IMG/VR virus record: IMGVR_UViG_3300024432_000043
Location: 1-31,904 of that record
Source of the DNA: a virus
Direction: 5' to 3' (one strand)
DNA: 31,904 nucleotides
The position numbers were made by a program, and so were the translations under genes. This document shows, piece after piece, positions 192 to 9,798 of this stretch. Position 1 is the stretch's first letter; every line of letters starts with the position of its first letter. The notes beneath the pieces are model-generated. The model saw only the letters and a program-made list of their open reading frames with translations, was not told where the DNA came from and ran no database searches.

Positions 192-928
192 ACCACTTCC
201 TGTTTTGCGTCATCAGCTAACCAGTTATTAATTTTTTCTAAAACATGCATAAATTTCCAACGGCGTGATTTTGGCATTGCTTCGTAACGTCCTTCCATCT
301 TGGCCAAAGATTGTGCAACGTTTAAATTTGGAAATCGATCTACGTATGCATCGATTGATCCCTGATCGAGATTAAAATATTTGTTTTCGGCTGTTAATAT
401 TTTGAACAAAATTTTGGGGGGTGGGTTGTCGTTATCTCTCTCCCTATTTTCTTTCATTTCATTCTTATTCTTATCCCTATTCTCATGTTTGTTATCACTA
501 TGTTGACATACTGGTGAATTACTGTTGTCAGACTGTTTCTTTTTTTTGCCTTTTTTCTTAGACGGGGAGCTGGATCTTTTTTCGTTAGGAGGGATGATTC
601 CATCTTCATTTGGGTACTTAAAAAATTTTTCGTAATTTGTTTGATGATACCATCCTGTAACTTTTATGTATTTTTCATCTGCCACTGTGTAAAATTCAAT
701 CAGTTTATTTTTCTGTAATTCGACTAATATTTGTTCAATATCACGACAAAATATATTCTCATCAGCGGGAAAAATTTCCATTTTTAATCGTTTAAGAGAG
801 TAAGGATGAATGCCGCCATCATCACAAAAATTCCAAAGACCTATGAAGAATAAACGAGCGATAGGGGAGCATTCCACAATCTGTGGTGATGTCCAAAATT
901 CCACTTTAATGTGTCTTATTTTAGCCAT
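188..928 (-). CDS. Phage replication initiator / replisome organiser (winged-helix type)
   Basis: A 246-residue protein. The first ~105 residues have the pattern of phage replication proteins with a winged-helix N-terminus: basic start (MAKIRHIKVEFW), an ARLFFIGLWNFCDDGG block at about 24-39, an LKRLKMEIFP block at about 45-54, and a wing ending in a TGWYHQTNYEKF segment. A very basic linker (SKKKGKKKK, about 123-131) leads to a C-terminal helical domain that probably contacts a helicase or loader. Such proteins bind the phage origin. I chose the ATG at 928 over one seven codons upstream because GGGGG lies at normal ribosome-binding distance and because the ATG overlaps the stop of a leader ORF (TAATG). 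Function is inferred from the fold pattern and the adjacent origin-like repeats. Confidence 0.7.
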   Translation of the reverse strand: MAKIRHIKVEFWTSPQIVECSPIARLFFIGLWNFCDDGGIHPYSLKRLKMEIFPADENIFCRDIEQILVELQKNKLIEFYTVADEKYIKVTGWYHQTNYEKFFKYPNEDGIIPPNEKRSSSPSKKKGKKKKQSDNSNSPVCQHSDNKHENRDKNKNEMKENRERDNDNPPPKILFKILTAENKYFNLDQGSIDAYVDRFPNLNVAQSLAKMEGRYEAMPKSRRWKFMHVLEKINNWLADDAKQEVV

Positions 929-1098
929 TATATACCCCCACGCAGGCATAAAAAAAGCCTATTATTAGCGATTTGGTGTCGTGGTCGGCACAGTTTTAAG
1001 CCGCACCGCCTCGCTAATAATAAGCTTTTAAACTGTTTTATGAATCCACGATATGCACATAATAACACAAAAAATCCATATTGCAAGTCATTTTGCAT
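928..1098 (-). CDS. Leader ORF (56 codons) coupled to the replication initiator
   Basis: An uninterrupted 56-codon frame starts at ATG 1098, with GGAG five bases upstream, and stops at TAA 930-928. The stop overlaps the initiator start as TAATG. Its middle encodes LLLARRCG and CRPRHQIANN, read through the two sides of a large stem-loop (953-1029). No similarity to a known enzyme is visible. The arrangement resembles the leader ORFs (icd-like in P1, ash-like in P4) that lie under C4/CI antisense RNA control and pass translation on to the next gene. The peptide may matter less than the act of translating it. It lacks confirmation beyond its open frame, SD and overlap. Confidence 0.5.
   Translation of the reverse strand: MQNDLQYGFFVLLCAYRGFIKQFKSLLLARRCGLKLCRPRHQIANNRLFLCLRGGI
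950..1029 (-). terminator. Long stem-loop with U-run: attenuator-like terminator ahead of the initiator
   Basis: On the minus strand, AAAAGC plus TATTATTAGCG (1029-1012) pairs with CGCTAATAATA plus GCTTTT (970-953). A single T-G wobble joins the two blocks, giving an 18-pair stem. The RNA continues into seven U residues (956-950), the form of an intrinsic terminator. The ~41-base loop has its own GC-rich pairing (CGGC with GCCG). It lies inside the leader ORF and ends 22 bases before the initiator ATG, so it would block the initiator unless translation or another fold opens it. It could also act as a terminator for plus-strand RNA (GCTTTT after the stem). Confidence 0.55.
1059..1086 (-). promoter_or_regulatory. 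Candidate leftward promoter inside the leader ORF
   Basis: TTGCAA (1086-1081) and TATTAT (1064-1059) are spaced by 16 bases on the minus strand. A transcript from here would start near 1052 and would consist mainly of the 953-1029 stem-loop before reaching the initiator. It may be a chance match in AT-rich DNA. Confidence 0.3.
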
Positions 1099-1127
1099 AA
1101 AAACTCCGTTTATTTTAATCCGTTAAA

Positions 1128-1171
1128 ATGGCGAACCCTAGCCAGCAGGTATCCCTGCTGACACGACACTT
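1128..1171 (-). ncRNA. C4/CI-type antisense immunity RNA candidate
   Basis: On the minus strand a perfect hairpin CAGCAGG-GATA-CCTGCTG (1160-1143) is followed directly by a second small hairpin region GGCTAGGGTTCGCC (1143-1130). This is the two-hairpin layout expected of C4-like phage RNAs. Just 5' of the first hairpin, GTGTCGTG (1169-1162) is exactly complementary to CACGACAC (983-976) in the loop of the downstream stem-loop, and the pairing extends two more bases past one bulge. It sits upstream of a leader ORF that is coupled to the replication gene, which matches the gene order of P4 and P1 immunity loci. The assignment rests on layout and complementarity, not on a covariance-model match. 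Confidence 0.4.
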
Positions 1172-1225: not shown

Positions 1226-1287
1226 CGGAAAAATCGGAAATATCGGAAATATTAGATTTAATTTTTCCTAAATTTCCGATATTTCCG
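1226..1287. repeat. Iteron-like 9-bp repeats in an inverted array (origin candidate)
   Basis: Three head-to-tail 9-mers occupy 1226-1252 (CGGAAAAAT, then CGGAAATAT twice). Two inverted copies follow at 1270-1287 (AAATTTCCG, ATATTTCCG) after an AT-rich gap. Arms 1235-1250 and 1272-1287 form a perfect 16-bp inverted repeat. Position near the replication initiator and a DnaA box suggests initiator-binding iterons. On the minus strand the same sequence would fold into a hairpin followed by ATTTTT, so it could instead, or also, terminate transcription of the upstream membrane-protein gene. Confidence 0.5.
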
Positions 1288-9717: not shown

Positions 9718-9798
9718 GGAAAGGTATGGAAGTGGCTAAACCAGGCAGTCTGTAAAACTGTTCCCTCGGGTTCGGAGGTTCAAATCCTACCCTTTCCA
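9718..9798 (+). tRNA. tRNA-Tyr (anticodon GTA)
   Basis: Full cloverleaf. The acceptor stem GGAAAGG/CCTTTCC is perfect, with discriminator A at 9798. The D stem is TGG/CCA, and the anticodon stem has five pairs with loop CTGTAAA. A 12-base variable arm, TCCCTCGGGTTC, makes it a type II tRNA as expected for bacterial tRNA-Tyr. The T loop is TTCAAAT, and the T stem has one G-A mismatch. No CCA is encoded. It begins three bases after the last early gene, so it is probably cut from the early transcript. It may supply tyrosine codons in phage messages. Confidence 0.9.

Follow-up and report, generated by a model that had tools for sequence, protein, structure and literature searches.

The replication initiator gene of an AT-rich tailed phage is preceded by a leader that may act as a cis-acting, translation-gated attenuator of this gene, a reading to which we assign a probability of about 0.42 and which is moderately supported by evidence that is in silico throughout. 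By default, a long hairpin (1029-953) followed by a U7 run would end transcription inside a small leader ORF, uORF2, while the initiator start is base-paired, so that little initiator would be made. Ribosomes translating uORF2 would melt the 5' arm of this hairpin, whereupon an upstream segment (1189-1162), anchored on a bulge, would take over the 3' arm and hold the terminator open. The same ribosomes would then finish at the TAATG junction and restart on the initiator. From the elements described below and their predicted folds we infer that transcription terminates, that the two ORFs are coupled and which way the switch works; the upstream segment may also act in trans as a separate small RNA.

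The initiator gene and its leader

The source is a virus record of 31,904 bases, analysed over its whole length (the window). Its structural genes are podovirus-like and include a head-tail connector, a tail tubular-like protein and a capsid; RecT, a PDDEXK nuclease, SSB and a CsrA homologue are also encoded. The last of these (PF02599, E 6e-17, 2609-2806) lies in the early region and represents a phage-borne post-transcriptional regulator, and a tRNA-Tyr (GTA) gene at 9718-9798 separates the early region from the terminase gene. As to a possible temperate or plasmid life, neither an integrase nor a partition gene was recognised in those ORFs that were checked, the virus record being a fragment. 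A second record overlaps this one, its capsid and tail proteins being identical; it extends the right end and carries an HTH_3 regulator gene as well as another tRNA (L171:1242-1327, minus strand).

A preliminary description of this DNA had proposed a replication gene downstream of a leader ORF and a long stem-loop with a U-run, and these elements are borne out. The gene at 928-188 (minus strand) matches phrog_1408, replication initiation protein, with E 1.3e-29, and tblastn links it to phage replication initiators and replisome organisers. Its relatives in IMG/VR and in the species genomes scanned are no more than about 58% identical over the N-terminal domain. The leader ORF starts at ATG 1098-1096, is led by an SD-like GGAG, and its stop shares one base with the initiator ATG (TAATG). 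An in-frame ORF of at least 56 codons ending at the initiator start arose in 0.6% of dinucleotide shuffles, and one in any frame in 1.9%. No credible relatives of the uORF2 peptide were found, nor any family match for the possible second small ORF, uORF1, and no convincing promoter was identified upstream of the leader. The features are collected in Table 1.

Table 1. Features of the initiator gene and its leader (window coordinates)
Feature	Position	Strand	Basis or remark
Phage replication initiator gene	188-928	minus	ATG 928-926; phrog_1408/2149 and tblastn relatives
Leader ORF uORF2, 56 codons	928-1098	minus	SD GGAG about 1107-1104; TAA 930-928 overlaps initiator ATG
U7 run after the hairpin	950-956	minus	sequence
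Long terminator-like hairpin inside uORF2	953-1029	minus	77 nt, 19 pairs, -35 kcal/mol
11-nt unpaired bulge ACGACACCAAA, 3' side of hairpin	972-982	minus	holds 7/8 octamer-target bases
Octamer target CACGACAC	976-983	minus	complementarity
uORF2 segment pairing with initiator start region 935-926	1055-1064	minus	predicted fold
Possible second small ORF uORF1 (MKVSCQQGYLLARVRHFNGLK)	1110-1175	minus	no good SD; may be untranslated
All-AU hairpin AUUUUAA-CGGA-UUAAAAU	1111-1128	minus	with flanking pairs partly covers uORF2 SD
Strong hairpin CAGCAGG-GAUA-CCUGCUG, downstream of octamer	1141-1161	minus	fold
Octamer GTGTCGTG, seed of upstream arm	1162-1169	minus	exact complement of 983-976
Second part of upstream arm	1172-1189	minus	1184-1176/957-965, 1174-1172/969-971, 1189-1187/949-951
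62-bp inverted repeat, ATCGGAAAT-like units	1226-1287	.	just upstream of leader; arms 86% complementary

The leader as a whole folds with z = -4.3. Its long hairpin has the form of an intrinsic terminator or attenuator, a stable stem followed directly by a U-run. It is not listed by a standard terminator scan, its loop being large and interrupted. The single large bulge in its predicted fold is the one in Table 1, and the bulge region (981-971) has a mean unpaired probability of 0.76. In folded transcripts ending at 915-870 the initiator start is paired with uORF2, and in longer ones it pairs instead with a local downstream hairpin; the start is thus predicted to be sequestered in the leader transcripts folded. 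The two hairpins formerly described at 1128-1160 reduce to one strong hairpin (about 1161-1141), since the other, a GGC/GCC stem, has 3 bp and is absent from the MFE structure.

Pairing of the upstream arm and the predicted switch

The preliminary description had also drawn attention to an octamer, and GTGTCGTG (1169-1162) and CACGACAC (983-976) are indeed exact complements, each unique in the window. By itself this complementarity is marginal and near chance: an 8-bp complement occurred somewhere in the leader in 57% of dinucleotide shuffles, a figure that fell to 3.9% when at least 5 G/C were required, and one between the segments holding the octamer and its target was seen in 6.9%. Two further properties had been overlooked. 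The target falls on the unpaired bulge of the terminator-like hairpin, an arrangement found in 44 of 1000 shuffles, and a second stretch (1184-1172), co-linear with the octamer, extends the pairing into the 3' arm. This second stretch belongs to an imperfect 24-nt repeat of the 5' arm region of the hairpin, a repeat that is unremarkable by itself (55 of 1000 shuffles).

Taken together, the upstream arm and the hairpin region pair with -50.4 kcal/mol, compared with -33.7 ± 4.5 kcal/mol for shuffles. This strength was reached by 2 of 1000 shuffles with the widest segments and by 5-10 of 1000 with narrower ones. All the shuffle probabilities given for this leader are nominal, post hoc, non-independent and uncorrected for the number of segments tried, although they agree in direction. 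As a control, 14 of 1596 random 36-mers from the window paired with the 3' half of the hairpin as well as the upstream arm did.

In free folding the terminator hairpin is preferred by 7 kcal/mol, and the proposed switch would therefore require a ribosome or an RNA acting in trans. When a ribosome-sized footprint was placed on the 5' arm (1050-1022, 1040-1012, 1030-1003 or 1020-992), the MFE structure flipped to one in which the upstream segment forms 24 pairs with the 3' arm region. When the upstream segment was shuffled, the flip was matched in 7 of 500 cases, or about 1.5%, for the footprint tested. With the 5' arm covered, an alternative pairing that excludes the terminator, as expected of an attenuator, is thus predicted.

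A more specific version of the attenuator reading is a ribosome-armed toehold antiterminator, in which the upstream strand would land on the bulge and displace the ribosome-opened 5' arm, thereby tying the initiator to translation of the leader peptide, possibly also between transcripts. We regard this version as rather doubtful. If the strand did act between transcripts, expression of the initiator would report phage dose.

Alternative readings and related leaders

The assignment of the region to the P4 CI / P1 C4 type, made in the preliminary description, has to be withdrawn. Described C4 RNAs are about 77 nt long and processed by RNase P; their architecture comprises three stems, with loops a' and b' pairing with the target and b' doing so over the ribosome-binding site (PMC5320573). 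Neither at the gathering threshold nor with E relaxed to 10 did the Rfam C4 model (RF01695) match anything in the window, and the C4, c4-a1b1 and isrK models had zero matches in the leader, despite positive controls in which C4 scored 68.8 bits in P1 and 74.9 bits in P4, c4-a1b1 matched in both, and isrK matched P4 at 60.8 bits. A long closing stem around two hairpins is absent from the fold of 1195-1100, which has one strong hairpin, and the pairing octamer sits 5' of it, unlike the target-pairing loops of C4. A P4-style pairing of the middle element (1174-1100) with both flanking repeat copies, or with the ribosome-binding sites of uORF2 and the initiator, was no better than in shuffles. Because the target is the 3' half of a terminator-like hairpin and not the ribosome-binding site of uORF2, pairing should open the terminator, which is opposite in sign to C4/CI silencing. 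From the earlier proposal that the same logic controls replication, pairing in cis, a coupled ORF and a terminator-like hairpin before a replication gene are retained, and the C4/CI type is not.

These results also bear on an immunity RNA in the broader sense, a small trans-acting antisense RNA that would be cut from the leader at about 1190-1110, pair with 983-951 of other transcripts and silence the initiator. The same-transcript complementarity, the coupled leader ORF, the downstream replication gene and the single-stranded target in the bulge would suit it, but the silent models, the missing C4 fold, the expected activation and the shuffle-level pairing at ribosome-binding sites make it quite improbable. 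Rather unlikely is a dual RNA like IsrK, whose segment would pair with the 3' part of uORF2 in cis as an inactive fold and, as a short RNA, activate in trans; the layout is that of isrK-orf45-anrP (PMC4825925), but the isrK model, which finds its match in P4, finds none here, and there is no terminator between the upstream segment and uORF2 to yield a short RNA. A plain intergenic or leader terminator with translational coupling, the upstream complementarity being a coincidence or a by-product of the duplicated repeat, is unlikely as well, yet deserves some weight: the octamer and the 24-nt repeat are each close to chance, free folding favours the terminator, and other 36-mers of the window pair equally well. 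Against it stand the landing of the octamer on a single-stranded bulge, the co-linear second stretch, and the strength of the combined pairing, which only 0.2-1.6% of shuffles surpass. The region may, finally, work as DNA, as an origin, operators or promoter duplicates binding the initiator or a repressor, with the RNA folds incidental. The iteron-like inverted repeat of Table 1 possibly represents iterons of an origin or an operator, and segments are repeated (1176-1199 / 1017-1040 and 1211-1221 / 1076-1086). The hairpin with its U-run and the overlapping, SD-led ORF are, however, signatures at the RNA level, and a purely DNA-based element appears very improbable, although both explanations may hold.

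The viral, genome, phage and plasmid collections searched yielded no leader that could be aligned with this one, and the attenuator reading concerns a single leader sequence. Nothing informative came from blastn of the leader against phages and plasmids, from local blastn against about 160 fetched loci, or from comparing the leader DNA with eight records sharing other genes. A blastn match in Legionella adelaidensis was confined to the initiator coding sequence, and the one match of a DNA pattern scan of viral contigs (L168) was a GC-rich terminase-like coding sequence and is attributed to chance. The terminase gene had no relative in the viral contigs. The relatives of the initiator mostly follow directly on an ordinary gene and cannot, for this reason, test the leader; no Rfam C4 match was found in those sampled. 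In a relative with a 60% identical capsid (G002), the corresponding interval holds a small opposite-strand ORF and not this leader. At L172:8640-8691 (plus strand), in a relative whose capsid is 60% identical, a stem-loop followed by a U-run ends about 20 nt before the start of a small early gene.

Of all stems in the fetched loci that have a U-run and a loop of 20-70 nt, the two longest were that of the window and that of L112, a viral contig sharing the neighbouring gene 1377-1820 (68%). At L112:3100-3200 (minus strand), an AU-rich, bulged terminator-like hairpin with a 21-pair stem and a U-run lies directly before an early gene whose product reads, by eye, as a ParB-like/methyltransferase protein. 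It has an 11-nt 3' bulge and a complementary upstream 7-mer, the complement being insignificant alone (113 of 1000 shuffles), and no overlapping leader ORF was seen. This contig hints that the bulged-terminator layout recurs before another early phage gene.

A different arrangement was observed in another phage contig, at L074:2893-3002 (plus strand). Immediately before a homologous initiator with 55% identity lie a TATAAT-like box and a C4-shaped RNA with a closing stem GCCGCC/GGGCGGC and an inner hairpin CUUCGGG/CCCGAAG. The Rfam C4 model gives no match to this RNA. It contains an ACCUGU for which there are two complementary ACAGGU copies, one of them over the initiator ribosome-binding region.

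Comparison with known systems

To our knowledge, the RNA leaders that govern the replication or lysogeny of phages, such as P4 CI, P1 C4 and IsrK, are few and come mostly from enterobacterial elements. If an initiator carried a leader that works by this logic but is unrelated in sequence, this would suggest that the coupling of a leader ORF to a switchable terminator has been used repeatedly, and searches limited to the C4 family would then miss such circuits.

In attenuators of the trp and his type, the position of the ribosome on a leader ORF chooses between a terminator and an alternative pairing, and the proposed switch would work by the same choice. It differs in that no regulatory codon run is evident, in that the alternative arm lies upstream of the leader ORF and would pair with the 3' arm of the terminator, and in that uORF2 continues through the terminator into the next gene.

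In plasmids of the I-complex, control of the initiator combines an antisense RNA with a leader peptide to which the initiator is coupled (PMC10286972). The phage leader resembles these, for example repY-repZ of ColIb-P9, in having a coupled leader peptide before the initiator and an RNA structure that would gate it. Here, in contrast, the gene is that of a phage, an antisense RNA gene was not found, and a terminator-like hairpin lies within the leader ORF.

With P4 CI and P1 C4 the leader shares complementarity within one transcript, located ahead of both a coupled ORF and a gene for phage control or replication. It lacks their closing stem and target-pairing loops, and its target is a terminator arm, so that activation would be expected; the CI RNA of P4 has been described as causing premature termination (PMC4825925).

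In the Salmonella prophage Gifsy-1, the stop of orf45 overlaps the antirepressor start, the 3' end of orf45 pairs with an RNA from further upstream, and the short IsrK activates the coupled gene in trans, a circuit (IsrK-orf45-anrP) that is experimentally established (PMC4825925). The phage leader repeats this layout: within one transcript, RNA ahead of a small leader ORF is complementary to the 3' part of that ORF, the leader stop overlaps a phage control gene at its start, and alternative folds and coupling are predicted. The differences are that neither the sequence nor the Rfam isrK model (RF01394) matches, that the terminator lies inside the leader ORF and not before it, and that the controlled gene is a replication initiator. 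Judged by layout and without a sequence relationship, IsrK-orf45-anrP is the closest match known to us.
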